Below, piece by piece: positions 1-7,724 of a stretch of 32,589 nucleotides of DNA. Positions within the stretch are counted from its first letter, which is position 1. Each line of letters begins with the position of its first letter. The position numbers and the translations under genes are program-made. This DNA comes from Zetaproteobacteria bacterium CG_4_9_14_3_um_filter_49_83 (GTDB lineage: Bacteria; Pseudomonadota; Zetaproteobacteria; Mariprofundales; Mariprofundaceae): the NCBI GenBank assembly GCA_002791545.1, contig PFXG01000066.1, positions 8,241-40,829 of the forward strand, read 5' to 3'. The notes below the pieces were generated by a model, which saw only the letters and a program-made list of their open reading frames with translations, was not told the origin of the DNA and searched no databases.

Positions 1-24
1 GCTGGACTATGGCTGGACTATGGC
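1..24. repeat. 12-bp tandem duplication
   Basis: The unit gctggactatgg occurs twice in a row at the window edge. It spans the stop codon of the leftward receiver gene, so the duplication shapes that protein's last residues. It may continue beyond the window. Confidence 0.7.
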
Positions 25-405
25 TTGAGTTCTTTTTGAGGGAATTGTTCCGACAAATTCGATCAGCTCTCTGACGTTAAAAGGTTTTTGCAATATGTGA
101 TCCACCGGATGTTTGTTTTTATGCTCATTGGAGTCACAGGAAGCAGCTGAACTGATGCCCTCGCGCATCAGGATGAAGGTGACGTCCGGATACTGTTGTT
201 TAATCAGTGTGGACAAGGCACAACCCATGCCTTCAGGTAGATCAATATTGGAAAACATCATATCCGGAGGGGTGTACGTGTCATTCAGCATGTAACAAAG
301 ATAACTTCTCTCTGAGCCAAATGTCTTTGATGGACTGCCCAAAAAGGCTGCGACTGTTGATACCAGGTCGCAGATAAAAGGTTCATTATCAATGATGTGG
401 ATCAT
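7..405 (-). CDS. Degenerate receiver-only response regulator
   Basis: A 132-residue CheY-like receiver with no output domain, clearly paralogous to the gene at 2607-2972 (same MIHIID start, same GCAL and KQQYPD segments, same KPFN end). Aligned with that paralogue, the phospho-accepting Asp53 is Asn (FSNID against LSDIN), the conserved Thr81 is Arg, and one acidic-pocket residue is Asn (DNE against DDE). Lys107 is kept. It therefore probably cannot be phosphorylated in the normal way and may act as a pseudo-receiver, partner or sponge; that role is inference. A palindrome shared with the paralogue lies 85 bp upstream, between this gene and the divergent SulP gene. The last codons and stop fall inside a 12-bp tandem duplication at the window edge, so the C-terminus may be altered. 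A Shine-Dalgarno-like AGGAGGG precedes the ATG. Confidence 0.85.
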   Translation of the reverse strand: MIHIIDNEPFICDLVSTVAAFLGSPSKTFGSERSYLCYMLNDTYTPPDMMFSNIDLPEGMGCALSTLIKQQYPDVTFILMREGISSAASCDSNEHKNKHPVDHILQKPFNVRELIEFVGTIPSKRTQAIVQP

Positions 406-489
406 GCTGAGCCCTCCTGCCTGTATCGCGCTGGCAATTAAAACGACAACGCGCTCTGATAGCGAACTTTAGTACGATATAAAAGTCGA

Positions 490-508
490 ACATCCCCTAT
501 ATGGGTGA
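490..508. promoter_or_regulatory. Shared palindromic operator, copy 1
   Basis: The sequence acatcccctatatgggtga contains an inverted CCCC/GGG pair around TATAT. The CCCC core starts 89 bp before the first base of the receiver gene at 7-405. A near-identical motif sits at exactly the same distance before the paralogous receiver gene (copy 2, 3054-3079), although the remaining upstream DNA is not alike. It lies in the 223-bp spacer shared with the divergent SulP gene and could control both. Inverted C/G-rich arms around an AT core resemble sites of NarL/FixJ-type regulators, but the regulator is not identified. Confidence 0.5.
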
Positions 509-628
509 TAAGAAGTGTTTCTTGCAGCGGTGTTCAAGTGTTCGCATCAGTGTCAAAATATATTCTTATTGCAGCCATATCGGCGCAGGCTCTAGATTCA
601 GCGGAGATTTGAGCAACTGGAGTTTATT

Positions 629-2185
629 TTGACAACTGGCCTTCAACTTAAAGGTAATCTGTTTGGTGGTATGACGGCGGCGGTGATTGCATTACCCCTG
701 GCTCTGGCTTTTGGCGTTGCCAGTGGTCTGGGAGCAACTGCCGGCTTATACGGCGCAATTATTCTGGGGTTGGTTTCAGCACTTGTCGGTGGTACACCGA
801 CGCAAATTTCCGGGCCTACCGGGCCGATGACGGTGATGATTGCCAGTGCCGTTGTTACCCTGCATCAGGATCTCAAGCTCATCGCCGCCACCATTTTTCT
901 TGCCGGTCTGTTTCAGCTGGTATTCGCTATGGCGCGAATCGGTCGGTTTGTCCGTTATATTCCCTATCCGGTTATCTCCGGCTTTATGAGTGGTATTGGT
1001 ATTATCATTATCATTCTGCAAATTCATCCGTTTCTGGGATTGTCACCGGAAGCGTCGGTCTTGCATATTCTGACCTCGCTACCGCAGCAGCTTCTGCAAA
1101 CCAATTTTAGTGCGGTTGTGCTGGCTGCTCTGGCACTGGCGATTGTTTTTTTTACCCCTCCCCATATCAGTCAATGGCTGCCTTCGCCGCTGATTGCCCT
1201 GATTGTTTTAACGCCGTTGAGCATGTTGCTGAACCTGCCCGTCGATACCATTGGTCAAATCCCGTCGACATGGCCTGATCTGGTGATTCCTTCTTTTGGT
1301 TTTGTCGATATTCGCCTGATTGTGCCGTTGGCATTTACACTGGCGGTGCTGGGGACCATCGATACGCTGTTGACCTCGATTGTTGCAGACTCCATCACCC
1401 AAACCCGTCATCAACCCAATAAGGAGCTGGTCGGTCAGGGATTGGGTAATGCCTTATGTGCTTTCGCTGGCGCGATACCTGGAGCAGGCGCAACCATGCG
1501 CACCGTGATTAACATCAAAAGTGGCGGTACCAATCGGTTATCAGGGATTTTTCATGCCCTGATTTTACTGCTGATAGTTATCTTTTTTGCGCCATTGGCA
1601 GCTGCTATTCCGATGGCGGTACTGGCCGGTATTCTGATTAAGGTCGGCATCGATATTCTCGATTACAGGTTTCTGGCGGTCTGGAAGGACAGCCCGCGTC
1701 ATGATCTGGGGATTATGGTCAGTGTGTTTTTTGTAACGGTATTTATTGATCTGATTACCGCTGTATTGCTCGGTATTGTCATGGCATCGCTGTCGATTGT
1801 TTACCGGATCACTCAGGCTACCCGGATTAATTTAATCAGTGAGGATAGTCCTACGGGACCTGTGGATTTAGAAAGCAAACAAGCCCGAATCATAAAAATT
1901 GAAGGCGCATTCTTTTTTGGCTCCAGTACAGCCTTTGAAAGCCATGTTAATAAAGCTCTGAATATTAAAACGATGATTATCGATATATCGGGTGTGCCGT
2001 TTCTTGATATTACGGCCATGTTCACGCTGAAGGATTTGCATGTCACTTTACAACATTCGGGTGTGGAAGTGATTATTGTTGCCAGCCATGAACTTCAACA
2101 GGAATTATTCAAACTCGACAGAGCTAAAACGTTCCGCAAAGACAAGTTTTTCACTTCACTCGAAGATGCTGTTCGCCAGCTGTAG
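629..2185 (+). CDS. SulP-family anion (probable bicarbonate) transporter
   Basis: A 518-residue inner-membrane transporter of the SulP/SLC26 family. The first ~400 residues are hydrophobic transmembrane segments, with the family signature GPTGPMTVM at about residues 62-70. The C-terminal ~95 residues form a cytoplasmic STAS domain (from about RIIKIEGAFFFGS). The gate-region sequence and compact size resemble the Na+/HCO3- symporter BicA, and a beta-carbonic anhydrase lies 0.9 kb downstream, so bicarbonate is the likely substrate; sulfate or another anion is not excluded. The start is TTG, chosen because GGAG lies 6 bases upstream and the product begins at the usual place. It is transcribed divergently from the degenerate receiver gene. 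Confidence 0.85.
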   Translation: MTTGLQLKGNLFGGMTAAVIALPLALAFGVASGLGATAGLYGAIILGLVSALVGGTPTQISGPTGPMTVMIASAVVTLHQDLKLIAATIFLAGLFQLVFAMARIGRFVRYIPYPVISGFMSGIGIIIIILQIHPFLGLSPEASVLHILTSLPQQLLQTNFSAVVLAALALAIVFFTPPHISQWLPSPLIALIVLTPLSMLLNLPVDTIGQIPSTWPDLVIPSFGFVDIRLIVPLAFTLAVLGTIDTLLTSIVADSITQTRHQPNKELVGQGLGNALCAFAGAIPGAGATMRTVINIKSGGTNRLSGIFHALILLLIVIFFAPLAAAIPMAVLAGILIKVGIDILDYRFLAVWKDSPRHDLGIMVSVFFVTVFIDLITAVLLGIVMASLSIVYRITQATRINLISEDSPTGPVDLESKQARIIKIEGAFFFGSSTAFESHVNKALNIKTMIIDISGVPFLDITAMFTLKDLHVTLQHSGVEVIIVASHELQQELFKLDRAKTFRKDKFFTSLEDAVRQL

Positions 2186-2368
2186 TCGGAAATGCCTCCT
2201 GGGAGTCTGTCCGGGAATAGAAACCGTCGCGAGGGAAAGCGGGATTGCGTCAGTTTTTCCGTTCATGTGAGGCGAATCCTGCTTGCATTTAACGAGAATG
2301 AACGGGGGAAATGGCCAATATCCGCTTTGCCGCAGCAGGTTCTTCTATTCTCGGACAGGCTCCTGGAC

Positions 2369-2605
2369 CCGGATTATTCATAAATTCTGTTGCACCCTTG
2401 CTTGCCCCTTTGAATACAGTTTGTCCGTAGCGAATCCTTCATCAGTTGTCCGTATGCACTGCTATGCACGCCTTCTTCAGAATTCGTTGCGAACAAACGT
2501 TCGGCGCACAAAAAGGCTGAACTGCCGTTTGGACGCACATAGTGCGCCCGAAGAGTAAGGGGTTTGCCCTGCGTCAATCAGCACAACGATTCATGAATAA
2601 TCCGG
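2369..2605. mobile_element. MITE-like element with 13-bp terminal inverted repeats
   Basis: The ends ccggattattcat (2369-2381) and its exact reverse complement (2593-2605) bound 237 bp with no credible gene. Similarity continues imperfectly inside both ends. An internal palindrome (cgcac-ata-gtgcg) and a repeated ttgtccgta are also present. This is the structure of a non-autonomous transposable element. I see no convincing target-site duplication and cannot name the parent IS family. It fills most of the 420-bp gap between the transporter and the second receiver gene, and its right end stops 1 bp before the receiver stop codon. The rest of the gap (2186-2368) shows nothing I recognise. Confidence 0.6.
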
Positions 2606-2606
2606 T

Positions 2607-2972
2607 CTAGTTGTTGTGAATAAACTCGGATAATTCTTTCAGGTTGAAAGGTTTGTAGAAGGTGCGATCAATCAGCGCATCATTTTTTTGACCATGACAA
2701 CAATGCGGTGTGCATTGTTCCGGATTACCGGTCATCAGGGCAAATGTAGTGTCGGGATACTGTTGCTTGACCAGTGGCGCCAGAGCACAACCGGTCATTT
2801 CAGGCATGTTGATATCCGAAAGAATGATGCTCGGTTGAATATATGCTTCTTCCTGCATGTATTGCAGATAACGGGTAGCGGAGTCAAAGCTTTGCGCTTG
2901 TTTTCCCATATGGGAAACGGCTTTTGATAACAATTCACGAATTAACATTTCATCGTCAATAATATGGATCAT
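2607..2972 (-). CDS. Receiver-only response regulator (CheY-like)
   Basis: A 121-residue stand-alone receiver domain with all key residues: acidic pocket IDDE (Asp6-Glu8), phospho-acceptor Asp53 in LSDINMPEMTG, Thr81 in LMTGN and Lys107 in YKPFN. It has no DNA-binding output, so it must act by protein contact or as a phosphotransfer intermediate. It is the intact paralogue of the gene at 7-405. The start ATG has TCTCCTG (reverse AGGAGA) just upstream. It lies downstream of and co-directional with the carbonic anhydrase gene (125-bp gap), and a palindrome shared with its paralogue lies in that gap. A cognate kinase is not adjacent. The hybrid kinase at 25992 is too far away to link with confidence. 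Confidence 0.88.
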   Translation of the reverse strand: MIHIIDDEMLIRELLSKAVSHMGKQAQSFDSATRYLQYMQEEAYIQPSIILSDINMPEMTGCALAPLVKQQYPDTTFALMTGNPEQCTPHCCHGQKNDALIDRTFYKPFNLKELSEFIHNN

Positions 2973-3053
2973 GCCAGATTCTCCTGTTAGGACATACGGA
3001 GTATTTCAGCTTTTCAACCTGATTGGGTTCTAACCTAGCAAGAGAATCGAGGG

Positions 3054-3079
3054 GTCACATCCCCTATTTGGGGGGTGAC
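3054..3079. promoter_or_regulatory. Shared palindromic operator, copy 2
   Basis: Nested inverted arms GTCAC..CCCC-TATTT-GGGG..GTGAC, with the CCCC core starting 89 bp before the receiver gene at 2607-2972, the same distance as copy 1 before its paralogue. There is no T-tract on either side, which argues against an intrinsic terminator for the upstream carbonic anhydrase. Best read as a binding site for an unidentified regulator. Confidence 0.5.
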
Positions 3080-3096
3080 AGGCCGTGCTTGATATT

Positions 3097-3738
3097 TTAG
3101 CTGCCGACAGGCCAGATTTCTGCCGCATCACCGGGACGCAGGCGGTAGATCGGGGCAACATCTTTGACGCTGGTTTTGGTGACGTCGAGATCGTGAATCA
3201 AACCATCATGCACCGACAGAGAAAACCCCTTTTCCCAAGTGTTCTGCACTATGCGGGTATGGCATATATTTTCTACCTGTCGCTTCACATTGAGTTCGCA
3301 CAGGCGATTGAGTCGCTGATGCTTATCCAGTGAGTTCAGAAGGGTTTTGTGCTGCATATAGGTGTCGCGAATGCTGCGAATCCAGTTGTCGACTATGCCG
3401 TGATGTTGTCCTTCCAGAGCCGCACGAACGCCACCGCAATCGTAGTGTCCGGTGATGACGATATGCTCCACATTCAGAACATCCACAGCATATTGCGCCG
3501 CCGACAGACAGTTCAGATCGGTGTGCGAGACCTGATTGGCGACGTTGCGATGCACAAAGACCATGCCCGGCTCCAGTCCGATAATTTCATTGGCCGGAAC
3601 CCGGCTGTCAGAGCATCCGATCCACAGGTATTTCGGATTTTTCAGCTCGGAAAGGTGTTTGAAATAATCAGGGTTGGCTGCGACTTTCTGTTCGGACCAC
3701 TTGCGGTTGTTTTTAAGTAGATCATCGGGTGAACACAT
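3097..3738 (-). CDS. can: Beta-class carbonic anhydrase
   Basis: A 213-residue cytoplasmic zinc enzyme interconverting CO2 and bicarbonate. The zinc ligands are visible as Cys42 in GCSDSRVPAN and His98/Cys101 in GHYDCGG; the Asp44-Arg46 dyad is intact. Length and N-terminus match the Can/CynT2 type (E. coli Can is about 220 residues). It is followed on the same strand by a receiver gene and lies close to the SulP transporter, which fits a role in supplying bicarbonate or CO2 to carboxylases. The start is at the usual place for the family, although the Shine-Dalgarno is weak. No carboxysome genes are seen here. Confidence 0.93.
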   Translation of the reverse strand: MCSPDDLLKNNRKWSEQKVAANPDYFKHLSELKNPKYLWIGCSDSRVPANEIIGLEPGMVFVHRNVANQVSHTDLNCLSAAQYAVDVLNVEHIVITGHYDCGGVRAALEGQHHGIVDNWIRSIRDTYMQHKTLLNSLDKHQRLNRLCELNVKRQVENICHTRIVQNTWEKGFSLSVHDGLIHDLDVTKTSVKDVAPIYRLRPGDAAEIWPVGS

Positions 3739-4001
3739 GACGGCAAGTTACTTGGAAGTCATTGATTCGACAAGTTTTTCTGCGCTTTCAGGTTGGAAAC
3801 AACGGCAGTATTGATGTCGGCCGGATCGTATCTGTTCTGTAAAGCGTGCATTGAATTTCAACGCTATGGATATCCTCATGATTTGATTTGTCATGCCGTT
3901 GAGCATGGGTGTAAATAATCAGTTGGTAATTTTGGGTATACGCTTATGCATGATTGCTTTTGCGAATTTTGATGTTTACGCTTCATGATCTTATGATTTC
4001 A

Positions 4002-4325
4002 ATGAACGGAATATTCAGGGTTTTGTTACCCCTTGGCCTGACGCTGTTGATCGTTGCTGTTGCACCTTTGCTGGCTGAAATGATCGTGTTTCAGGCGCAG
4101 GCACAGGAATGTCCCGTAAATCCGGCTCAGGATGATGCTGTTATTGAGCTTGTTGATGTAGAACGAGAGAAAGGGGAAGTTGATGGTGAGTACATTTGCC
4201 TTCCTGCAAGTAGCAGTGATTATTCTCAGGCATTGACACTATTCAGTTTGGCGGTAGCAACAGATGAGCCCTTATCCCATAGTCAGACCATAGCCAAAGT
4301 ACCCATTTTTACTTCCCTGATTTAA
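4002..4325 (+). CDS. Small exported or membrane-anchored protein, unknown
   Basis: A 107-residue product if started at the ATG at 4002 (an upstream TTG at 3954 would add 16 residues). It begins with a strongly hydrophobic stretch (about residues 5-27, LLPLGLTLLIVAVAPLL) that could be a signal peptide ending near AQAQ or an anchor. An acidic segment follows, with two cysteines at about 34 and 63 that could form a disulfide. I recognise no family. There is no strong Shine-Dalgarno, so the gene call is tentative. It precedes another exported unknown on the same strand. The 263 bp between the carbonic anhydrase start and this ATG show nothing else I can name. Confidence 0.4.
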   Translation: MNGIFRVLLPLGLTLLIVAVAPLLAEMIVFQAQAQECPVNPAQDDAVIELVDVEREKGEVDGEYICLPASSSDYSQALTLFSLAVATDEPLSHSQTIAKVPIFTSLI

Positions 4326-4476
4326 TAGACGCCGATTCTGAACAAGCGCTTCAGAAGACTGATTTTGCTGCTTTGTGTTCGCCATGAACACATCCGGCTC
4401 AATGGAAAAACAATTAAATCGGTGGTGCAGTGATGATGTTTGAAAATTGCTGCATTTAACACAGGAGATTGGAAAA

Positions 4477-5022
4477 ATGAGTACAAAGTTTGCTGGTATA
4501 GTCGTAACTATGGTGTGCGCAGCGATGCTGGCACTTGGAATGCCTGTTCAGGCAGAAATTAAGGCCGGTGATGTTACCGGGGGCGCTAAAGCACCGCATG
4601 TAAATATAGCGATCTTTCATAAATTACATGGGCAAGATGCTTTTGCTTATCCGGTTAGCGTTGCTAAAGGTGATATTCTGAAGGGGTTTTCCGGTAAAGC
4701 TCAGTTTATATCGATGAATCACACAGCTGGCTTAAAAGACAATGATGTTATTACCCTTTCAAACGATGTGTTGCGTGAAAATGCAGGTGCCTTTGAGGAT
4801 CTGGGCGTGGACTGTCAGGTCTCGGTTCATATAAAAAATACGGATGTATCGCTGGCAGGCATGTGTGAAATTTTCCTGATTGATCAGGATCATCGTGAAA
4901 TTGAACATAAAGGTATTATCAAGACCGTGACAGTCAAAAATGGTGCGGACTGGCAGCTTATTTACCTGGGTGAGGAAGACGGAATTGCCGTGTATGCAAA
5001 TCAGGAAATCGGGCTGGAGTAA
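4477..5022 (+). CDS. Exported protein of unknown function
   Basis: A 181-residue product from the ATG at 4477, chosen over an upstream TTG at 4447 because AGGAG lies 9 bases before it and the N-terminus then forms a clean signal peptide (MSTKFAGIVVT...GMPVQA, cleavage before EIK). The mature part, about 155 residues, has alternating beta-rich character and two cysteines about 20 residues apart (GVDCQV, AGMCEI) that could be disulfide-bonded in the periplasm. I do not recognise a family. It ends 76 bp before the leftward GMC oxidase fragment, with a strong palindrome between the two. Confidence 0.75.
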   Translation: MSTKFAGIVVTMVCAAMLALGMPVQAEIKAGDVTGGAKAPHVNIAIFHKLHGQDAFAYPVSVAKGDILKGFSGKAQFISMNHTAGLKDNDVITLSNDVLRENAGAFEDLGVDCQVSVHIKNTDVSLAGMCEIFLIDQDHREIEHKGIIKTVTVKNGADWQLIYLGEEDGIAVYANQEIGLE

Positions 5023-5098: not shown

Positions 5099-5560
5099 CT
5101 ATATTGCTGCTTTGCTATCTTCGCTTATGTGCTGAGCGATGCGCATGGCATTAGCCATAATGGTTTGTTGCGGGTTGACGCCGATATTGCTTGGTAGCAC
5201 CGATGCATCAACCACATAAAGCTTTTCGTGCAGATGCACCTTTCCCTTCATGTCACATACTGAATTGTAAGCATTGGTGCCCATAATGCAGCCGCCAAAC
5301 AGATGGGTGAGTGCCTGATAGTCTGAGGCGGAGGTTGAAGCGGTATTGATTTTATCAATATCAGCAACGGGAAGAACAGCCTCAAGGCCAGCTATGCCGT
5401 GCATCACATGTGTGGCTCCTGCCGCTTTATGCAATCTCGCCGCTTCGTAGATGCCTTTGCGGAAGCGTTTCATTTCAGTGTGATCGAGTTTGTAGACAAC
5501 TTCGGGCTTGCTGATACTTCCCAGCACCGTCCCCCATGTTTTAGCCCGGCAAGCCTGCAC
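5099..5560 (-). pseudogene. C-terminal part of the GMC oxidoreductase (other frame)
   Basis: This 153-residue frame carries the conserved C-terminal end of the GMC family. It has the active-site His in ALTHLFGG (about residue 86), the VVDASVLP segment and the Asn-Pro of GVNPQQTIMANAMRIA, the usual second catalytic position with FAD contacts. It has no sensible start of its own. It continues the oxidase at 5541-7724 after a one-base frameshift near 5565-5580. Together the two frames make a near-complete enzyme of about 870 residues. Confidence 0.85.
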
Positions 5561-7724
5561 AATAACCCATATAGTGCCAATTCCTGAGTTGATTCATCAG
5601 ACTGCTGCCAGAAAGCGGGATGCGCCCTGAAAACAGGTCCAGTGGTGCTGCCAGCGTCTCCAGTTTGAAGCCTGTATGCATATCATCATTTCGTTCACGA
5701 TAATACGTTGAAGCCCAGCCCTGCGTAACTGCATCGATGTGCCCGTCGCGTAGTTTGTAAACCTGCCGATCGTATACGCCAATGACATTGCTTCCGGGGT
5801 GCGCCTGAAAATGTTTACCCAGATCAGGCAGCTTTTTTTCAAGCGACGCTTTGAGTAGTAGCGGGGACATCACTGCCGATGCCGCAACAATGACGGCCCT
5901 TTTTGCGGTGATGGTGAAATTTGCCCCGCTGGTTTTACTTTCCGGATGCACAAAATTGCCCCGGACACCCTGCGCCACATCGTTCTGACTTCCCTGATGG
6001 TGTCGGATATCGATGTTTTGAACATGTGCATTGGACAGTATGGTGACAACAGGCTGATCCGCGATTCTGGTTTCCAGTGCTCTGGTTAGCAAAGAGAAAT
6101 CGAGACTTTGTTTGGCACCGATCGGGCAACCACGGAAGCATGAATTTTTTGCCGCGCAGCCATCGGTGTAACGATCAAGGAATCGATACTCATCGGAGGC
6201 ACCGTACAGACCTTCGGCGGCTGAGTTCACCTGTCGGTCGAAAGCTTCATCGCCGATCGAAGTCTCGGTCGACTGTGTAGGCATCAGCGTTTCAAGTTCA
6301 TCAAGCAGGGCGATGAATCTCGATTTTTCTTCCGGCTCATTTTTAAACCATGAATCGAGAATATCATCAGGTGTGCGATGGTGAATGGCTGAGTTGATGA
6401 CGGAAGTGCCGCCAACGGCATTGGCATGTACGACAGGCCATTGCGGGATAGTTTGCGCACTTGCAAATTGTGGTGAGGCTACGGTCATTCCCTGATTGTC
6501 CAGCAGTGATTGAATGACACCCAGTGCGCTATGCGCGAGTTGATCGTATTGCCGCCACTCGCCTTTTTCGATGATGGCAATGGATATCGGATCGTTGCTG
6601 TTTTTTGCTTCCCTGCATAATTCGAAAGCTGCCGCAGCACCGCCGGGGCCGCTGCCGACGATAACGTAGTCAAACAAGGTCTGACTCAGGGTTTCACCCT
6701 GAGCCTTGAACGGAATATGCTGCTGTTTAAAATCACGATGCGGTTGCAGCGATGTTTCAGGCTCATCCTCGTAGATGTCGAAGCCCAGTGATTGACGCAC
6801 AGCCGGATCTGCTCCCCAGCATAGCCCGGCATTGAGGCGGATAAATCCTTCCGCTACAGGATAAAAAGGTGAAAGCAAAGACGTGGAAGGCTTGCCGATC
6901 ATGGCCAGAATGGATTCCTGCTGCTCGCAATCAAGTTCTGCAAAACTGTAAATGTTGTGATCGTGCTCTTGCAGAAACGTGCGAAAAAGCCAGCTGACGG
7001 TTTTGATGTTTTTCAGGTAATCCTTGTTTCCTTTCATTTTTATTTTTGCGATATAGGCAGTGGCCGCTTCTTTGCTGACGCCTTGCATGCCATCAATACT
7101 CGGCATCATCGCCATCATACCGATTTTGAATGTTTCCAGTGTGATATCCCGTTCCTGACAAAGCGTGAAATAACCGGCATGGTGATCATTTCTGGTGGCC
7201 TTGCCGATGTAAAAGTCGTTGGAAATCTTTCTGACATGATCCTTGAGATGATGAAAGATACCATCATCGTTAGGGGTGATTTTACTCCAGCCTGCGGGTC
7301 TGGCTGCCACAGGCGGTGTGGCGCTGTAGTCGATGATGATTTCATGCAACGTATCTGTTTGACAGACAGAGAAAAATCCCATGCCGAATTTCGAGGGTTT
7401 AAGCAGCCTGGAATTGGCACCGTAAACATTTCCTTCATATCGATACATGGCCTTTTTGAACTTCTGAAATACCGGGAGCGTATTTTCACCGGCGTAGATC
7501 ACAGGCTCCAGAGAAGGCGTGTCTTCAGGCACCAGATCAGTCAGGCGAATAGTCAGGAAGTTCTCCGAGAGCTCCCACAGGCGCTGCTGATCGTCATTGT
7601 GCAGATCGCCTGTCATGCTGAGTTGCTCTGCCTTATTGAGCTGATCGAGAAACATTTTGATTTGTTCGGGCGTGCAATCTGGTGTTTCGAGTAAAGCTCT
7701 GAATTGGCGGATAATGGTGTTCAT
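5541..7724 (-). CDS. GMC-family FAD-dependent oxidoreductase, frameshifted
   Basis: The main 727-codon part of a large oxidoreductase. Residues 353-375 (DYVIVGSGPGG) are the FAD-binding dinucleotide fold. The segments around HANAVGGTSVINSAIHHRTP and CAAKNSCFRGCPIGAKQS are typical of bacterial GMC alcohol/cholesterol-oxidase relatives. About 350 residues precede the FAD fold. The portion at 260-315 (FAELDCEQQESIL...) recalls the extension of fatty-alcohol oxidases or a gluconate-dehydrogenase subunit 3-like region, while residues 60-200 I cannot assign. The frame ends in a stop just after WHYMGYCAGLPG. One base fewer at that point gives HYWVIVQACRAKTWG and joins the C-terminal frame at 5099-5560. 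The start ATG overlaps the stop of the upstream phosphodiesterase (ATGA), so the two are translationally coupled. No signal peptide. Substrate unknown, perhaps a lipid alcohol. Confidence 0.8.
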   Translation of the reverse strand: MNTIIRQFRALLETPDCTPEQIKMFLDQLNKAEQLSMTGDLHNDDQQRLWELSENFLTIRLTDLVPEDTPSLEPVIYAGENTLPVFQKFKKAMYRYEGNVYGANSRLLKPSKFGMGFFSVCQTDTLHEIIIDYSATPPVAARPAGWSKITPNDDGIFHHLKDHVRKISNDFYIGKATRNDHHAGYFTLCQERDITLETFKIGMMAMMPSIDGMQGVSKEAATAYIAKIKMKGNKDYLKNIKTVSWLFRTFLQEHDHNIYSFAELDCEQQESILAMIGKPSTSLLSPFYPVAEGFIRLNAGLCWGADPAVRQSLGFDIYEDEPETSLQPHRDFKQQHIPFKAQGETLSQTLFDYVIVGSGPGGAAAAFELCREAKNSNDPISIAIIEKGEWRQYDQLAHSALGVIQSLLDNQGMTVASPQFASAQTIPQWPVVHANAVGGTSVINSAIHHRTPDDILDSWFKNEPEEKSRFIALLDELETLMPTQSTETSIGDEAFDRQVNSAAEGLYGASDEYRFLDRYTDGCAAKNSCFRGCPIGAKQSLDFSLLTRALETRIADQPVVTILSNAHVQNIDIRHHQGSQNDVAQGVRGNFVHPESKTSGANFTITAKRAVIVAASAVMSPLLLKASLEKKLPDLGKHFQAHPGSNVIGVYDRQVYKLRDGHIDAVTQGWASTYYRERNDDMHTGFKLETLAAPLDLFSGRIPLSGSSLMNQLRNWHYMGYCAGLPG

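Follow-up and report, generated by a model that had tools for sequence, protein, structure and literature searches.

Genes and dyad copies at the locus

The left part of the window (the whole stretch of DNA analysed, 32,589 nucleotides) carries two genes for stand-alone receiver proteins, a transporter gene and a carbonic anhydrase gene, together with two copies of a short palindrome, each located upstream of a receiver gene:

7..405, minus strand, receiver 1, a stand-alone receiver of 132 aa (Response_reg E-value 8.5e-07, just under the Pfam cut-off)
466..471, minus strand, -10-like hexamer TAAAGT, 22 nt past the GGGG of copy 1 (position scan and shuffle test)
490..508, minus strand, dyad copy 1, an exact match to the genome-wide motif (plus-strand letters ACATCCCCTATATGGGTGA)
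629..2185, plus strand, SulP/BicA-like anion transporter with STAS (Pfam Sulfate_transp and STAS), divergent from receiver 1
2607..2972, minus strand, receiver 2, a stand-alone receiver of 121 aa (Response_reg E-value 9e-14)
3032..3037, minus strand, -10-like hexamer TAGGTT, 23 nt past the GGGG of copy 2
3054..3079, minus strand, dyad copy 2, an exact match to the genome-wide motif (in gene direction TGTCACCCCCCAAATAGGGGATGTGA)
3097..3738, minus strand, beta-carbonic anhydrase (Pro_CA E-value 4e-47), upstream of copy 2 on the same strand

Response_reg is the sole domain of both receivers, a stand-alone architecture that FixT also has, and the two proteins are paralogs sharing an amino acid identity of 42%. 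In the alignment, receiver 2 keeps Asp6, Asp7, Asp53, Thr81 and Lys107 intact, whereas receiver 1 carries the substitutions D7N, D53N and T81R and qualifies as an aspartate-less receiver, with Asn53 where receiver 2 has Asp. Receiver 2 also contains four cysteines, C62 and a C87-x3-C91-C92 group, which possibly form a metal or Fe-S site. The C-x3-CC group recurs in a relative from another genome (G005:C23, L131) and is absent from receiver 1 and from a third receiver paralog of this genome on contig C74, while C62 is common to all four proteins. The AlphaFold model of receiver 2, predicted from the single sequence, has a pLDDT of 40 and was set aside. The C74 paralog is closest to receiver 1, and no copy of the palindrome was found at its gene.

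The sequence ACATCCCCTATWTGGG occurs as two exact copies in the window, at 490-505 and 3057-3072. Read in gene direction on the minus strand, copy 1 is TCACCCATATAGGGGATGT, with its GGGGATGT side facing receiver 1; copy 2 reads ACATCCCCTATTTGGGGGG on the plus strand, from 3057. The first-pass annotation had reported that the palindrome lies at the same distance before both receiver genes in otherwise dissimilar upstream regions, and both statements hold. The ORF coordinates give 89 bp from the first base of CCCC to the first base of the ATG in each case (494-405; 3061-2972), and identity outside the motif is 28% upstream and 34% downstream, which is about background. The direct repeat that joins the two regions (family D2) begins at the motif and fades within 35 nt. 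The flanks are thus no more alike than background although the receivers are paralogous, and the pair of copies therefore does not stem from a recent duplication; duplication of a larger segment was ruled out as the source of the match. A search for RNA families in window 1-5000 returned no match.

Several other features were observed in the window. Two adjacent dispersed repeats, of about 170 bp and about 238 bp, lie at 2196-2605, between the SulP gene and receiver 2; the second has 17-bp inverted ends at 2369-2385 and 2589-2605. This stretch has 58 matches in the genome, some of them fragments, with up to 96% identity, and the repeats resemble MITE-like elements. An 11-bp tandem repeat, GGACTATGGCT, is located at window 1-25 and again at L012 8137-8265 (G000:C80), just past the ends of receiver 1 and of a DNA-glycosylase-like gene; about 11 copies are seen in the assembly, with an N run between. 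At 5099-7724, the N and C parts of a GMC oxidoreductase are encoded on two overlapping ORFs (5541-7724 and 5099-5560), suggesting a frameshift or a sequencing error.

Genome-wide occurrence of the site and the genes behind it

Across the whole 2.68 Mb genome, the motif ACATCCCCTATNTGGG has four exact copies, and the reversed control pattern has none. Each of the four lies just upstream of a gene and in the same orientation; besides the two receivers, the downstream genes encode two response regulators of the NarL/FixJ type. A looser motif added two weaker copies:

C32:954, exact copy, preceding a response regulator with receiver and GerE domains
C59:11610, exact copy, preceding a second response regulator with receiver and GerE domains
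C21, weaker copy, preceding a large Ig/HYR-domain surface protein, 63 bp from its start codon
C42, weaker copy, preceding a 73-aa hydrophobic protein (a small membrane protein), 90 bp from its start codon

The motif is rare elsewhere. Five copies in total turned up among 398 further genomes of the phylum, never more than one per genome; four of these five lie within coding sequence and one is intergenic. At this rate about 0.009 copies would be expected in the present genome, against the four observed (P ~2e-10), both values assuming that genomes average 3.9 Mb; the motif is accordingly not frequent at random sites. Within the window, the two zero-mismatch matches compare with 0.49 matches expected at three or fewer mismatches in dinucleotide shuffles. 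Searching the genome with CCCCTATNTGGGG recovered three of the four sites and no others (copy 1 reads GGGT), and CC-N5-GGGGATGT recovered all four exact sites, the C21 and C42 copies and three coding matches. Allowing two mismatches gave nine matches versus four for the control pattern, and the weak matches on C49, C89, C13, C39 and C85 were discarded, since they either fall inside coding sequence or are wrongly spaced relative to a gene. These searches may have overlooked sites that lack ACATCCCC or GGGGATGT, and the ATGT flank appears invariant partly since the searches demanded ATGT. Seven stretches of viral contigs carry the site, all within long open frames, and were taken as chance matches. 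A literature search with the letters of the motif returned unrelated papers only, among the matches listed.

The GGGGATGT side faces the gene at all six sites, and the CCCC-to-ATG distances are 89, 89, 84, 69, 63 and 90 bp. Because the six sites lie anywhere from 63 to 90 bp from the ATG, 89 bp is not the rule, and the identical value in the two window copies is partly a coincidence. The C21 copy shows poor conservation of the left heptamer, and at C42 a CZB-GGDEF gene comes next after the 73-aa gene. In the C32 copy (L010, about 954-975), nine consecutive C make up the outer half of the dyad, compared with two to six elsewhere, a homopolymer that could change length. With this genome as the sole member of its genus, the site is absent from the regulator and receiver genes of all relatives of the class that were compared, and hence there is no phylogenetic footprint. 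The view that the site is selectively kept is well supported.

Candidate regulators of the site

The proteins encoded behind the C32 and C59 copies (G000:C32 and G000:C59) contain Response_reg and GerE domains, both above the Pfam cut-offs, which assigns them to the NarL/FixJ (LuxR/GerE) class, and they are paralogs with 67% identity. They are neither NarL nor NarP proper, scoring 85-98 bits against NCBIfam cut-offs of 250 and 343. Among the named families, both score highest with ErdR, and they fall outside ErdR/CrbR as well (134 and 98 bits against the NCBIfam ErdR cut-off of 390). When named genomes were scanned with the C59 regulator, no relative exceeded about 32% identity across its full length, and a plasmid search returned distant matches only, the best at about 36% among the matches listed.

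In the best copies the site reads as the heptamers ATCCCCT-AT-ATGGGGG, that is, two inverted heptamers around a 2-bp spacer, which is the 7-2-7 geometry of NarL-type sites. Relative to the NarL heptamer consensus TACYYMT, the CCCCT agrees, and the first two bases are AT rather than TA in all exact copies. The site thus resembles a NarL-type operator in arrangement, and is regarded as a putative one. The first-pass annotation had named NarL/FixJ-type regulators as the proteins to test for binding, and the site probably belongs to a regulator of this type. Since the site marks the promoters of both regulators themselves, autoregulation is the simplest reading. A comparable situation was detected in four related genomes, in which another 7-2-7-like dyad, TAACYAAAGTTA, stands directly upstream of NarL-type regulators of the same subfamily (G017:C1:6025, G004:C16:7683, G016:C10:80404 and G024:C110:424; for example TATAACCAAAGTTATA), four of its 11 matches in those genomes preceding regulators. 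It appears from this that regulators of the subfamily usually have a dyad in front of their own gene, and TAACYAAAGTTA is a candidate family-wide autoregulatory operator.

We therefore regard the palindrome as the probable operator of a NarL/FixJ-type regulon under autoregulation, in which the C32/C59 pair activates its own genes and those of the two stand-alone receivers. The main competing possibility, to which we give a clearly smaller yet appreciable chance, is that the dyad serves another NarL/FixJ-type regulator and that C32 and C59 are targets in a cascade. The genome encodes further NarL-type regulators, one on C22 and two on C73, any of which could be the binder, and no kinase was found beside the C32 or C59 regulators among the neighbours examined. 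On C73 (L016 6720-10593), a gene for a MASE1-PAS hybrid kinase (kinase-receiver) is followed by the two NarL-type regulators, and a one-mismatch copy of the dyad, TCATCCCCAATATGGG, is located about 280 bp upstream of the kinase gene. However, this copy has no -10-like hexamer at the common spacing and is one of the weak matches expected by chance, while it is C32 and C59 that have the perfect sites, as autoregulation predicts.

Promoter geometry and proposed mechanism

When the six promoters are aligned on GGGG, a common hexamer appears in which A2 and T6 are invariant (TAAAGT, TAGGTT, AATACT, CATACT, TATAGT and GAGAAT), beginning 22 nt past GGGG, or 23 nt in receiver 2. In a shuffle test in which the downstream sequences were shuffled and all offsets counted, the probability of such a hexamer at any offset was 0.003-0.006 for the four exact sites and 0/2000 for the six sites. 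A fixed distance to the ATG was consequently dropped as the constraint in favour of the distance to the -10-like hexamer. As -10 elements, CATACT, AATACT and GAGAAT are weak, and better-scoring hexamers exist further downstream at C32, C59 and C42. Scanned for sigma-70 elements, the two window promoters showed no good -35, which fits a dependence on an activator.

If the hexamers are -10 elements, the dyad would be centred near -41 and overlap the -35 region. Class II activators are recognised by an operator centred near -41.5, overlapping -35, with the -10 at a fixed spacing, and the layout seen here, taken with the predicted -10 elements, supports this type of activation. In the mechanism that we propose, the C32 and C59 regulators would bind the dyad as dimers, head to head on the two heptamers as NarL does, and would thereby cover the -35 region. 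The promoters would be of the sigma-70 type, with a -10-like hexamer and no good -35. The bound regulator would then recruit RNA polymerase at its own two genes and at both receiver genes. The receivers, in turn, may act back through protein contact on the kinase or phosphorelay above them, in the manner of FixT in FixL-FixJ, a role proposed by analogy only.

The same overlap with the -35 position could also reflect a repressor that occludes this region, and NarL itself is known to repress frdA from 7-2-7 sites close to the start (PMC4549865). This explanation appears unlikely, as the two window promoters have no recognisable -35 in the sigma-70 scan. Repressor sites, moreover, more often span -10 to +1, which counts against it further.

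The proposed link to CO2 and bicarbonate

Based on the neighbouring genes, the first-pass annotation had proposed a CO2- or bicarbonate-responsive regulon, with copy 1 in the divergent promoter of the SulP transporter and copy 2 behind carbonic anhydrase. Copy 1 is indeed located between receiver 1 and the SulP gene, for which BicA is the best NCBIfam model (448 bits against a cut-off of 880), and copy 2 does lie behind the carbonic anhydrase gene, whose product reaches 246.5 bits in NCBIfam PRK10437 (cut-off 251). However, copy 1 faces receiver 1, and no hexamer with A2 and T6 occurs at the common spacing in the SulP direction, so that the SulP gene is not clearly a target. Copy 2 can serve receiver 2 only, and the scan of the region upstream of carbonic anhydrase for the site was empty. 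The expected motif at RuBisCO genes did not appear either: the single RuBisCO locus (C87:28757-29659) has no ACATCCCCTATNTGGG at two or fewer mismatches and no CC-N5-GGGGATGT. The remaining targets (regulators, a surface protein, a small membrane protein) have no relation to CO2. The CO2 regulon was rejected after these two scans, and we regard it as very improbable.

Least credible, with a negligible probability, is that the sites are chance matches or a small mobile repeat: the site is just 16-19 bp long and mobile repeats exist nearby, but its rarity in other genomes, promoter placement, single orientation and unrelated flanks largely refute this by the counts given above.

From two matching sequences, the analysis arrives at a small, defined regulon whose site can be tested and for which there are candidate regulators and a likely promoter layout, and a tempting but unsupported connection to CO2 sensing has been removed. 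Activation by the C32/C59 pair, if confirmed, would connect two receivers that have no known role with a named switch pair, and would show a NarL-type operator gaining a new sequence in one lineage while its sister regulators use another dyad.

Comparison with known regulatory systems

The site shares with the E. coli NarL sites of ogt, yeaR-yoaG and napF the head-to-head heptamers, the 2-bp spacer and the CCCCT half-site (PMC7419079, PMC4549865), and both this half-site and the 7-2-7 spacing are common to the engineered high-affinity NarL site TACCCCTAAAGGGGTA (PMC4549865). The closest parallel in layout is yeaR-yoaG, where NarL activates via a single 7-2-7 site just upstream of -35; the present promoters likewise have a single dyad, predicted to abut -35, an arrangement that at yeaR suffices for activation (PMC7419079). 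The differences are that the gene-proximal heptamer here is ATCCCCT in place of TACYYMT, that the targets belong to signalling and not to the nitrate genes, and that C32 and C59 fall far short of the cut-offs of the NarL and NarP models. A second parallel is the ACTU motif of CrbR/ErdR, the acetate switch, an imperfect inverted repeat that is needed for activation by a LuxR-type response regulator (PMC5715377). Both are imperfect inverted repeats just upstream of the core promoter, a comparison of layout and not of letters, and in contrast to the ACTU system no acetate genes are among the targets seen.

With regard to the receivers, receiver 1 is similar to aspartate-less receivers in having no phosphorylatable Asp (PMC4395418) and differs from those compared in being stand-alone. 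FixT is a stand-alone receiver that is induced by a FixJ-family regulator and inhibits FixL, and the Caulobacter protein binds an Fe-S cluster via four cysteines (PMC7078487). The proposed arrangement is like FixL-FixJ-FixT in that stand-alone receivers would be placed under a regulator of the NarL/FixJ family, and receiver 2 has four cysteines as well. Their positions differ, however: Caulobacter FixT uses C53, C56, C59 and C64, and receiver 2, with C62 and C87-x3-C91-C92, has other spacings and does not match the Caulobacter four-cysteine motif. It is conceivable, although we would put little weight on it, that the system represents a FixT-like circuit outside Alphaproteobacteria, in which the duplicated regulator pair would switch on its own genes and those of the two divergent receivers, one of them aspartate-less and the other binding a metal or an Fe-S cluster (through C62, C87, C91 and C92), and the receivers would provide phosphate-independent feedback, sensitive to redox state or iron, on that pathway.
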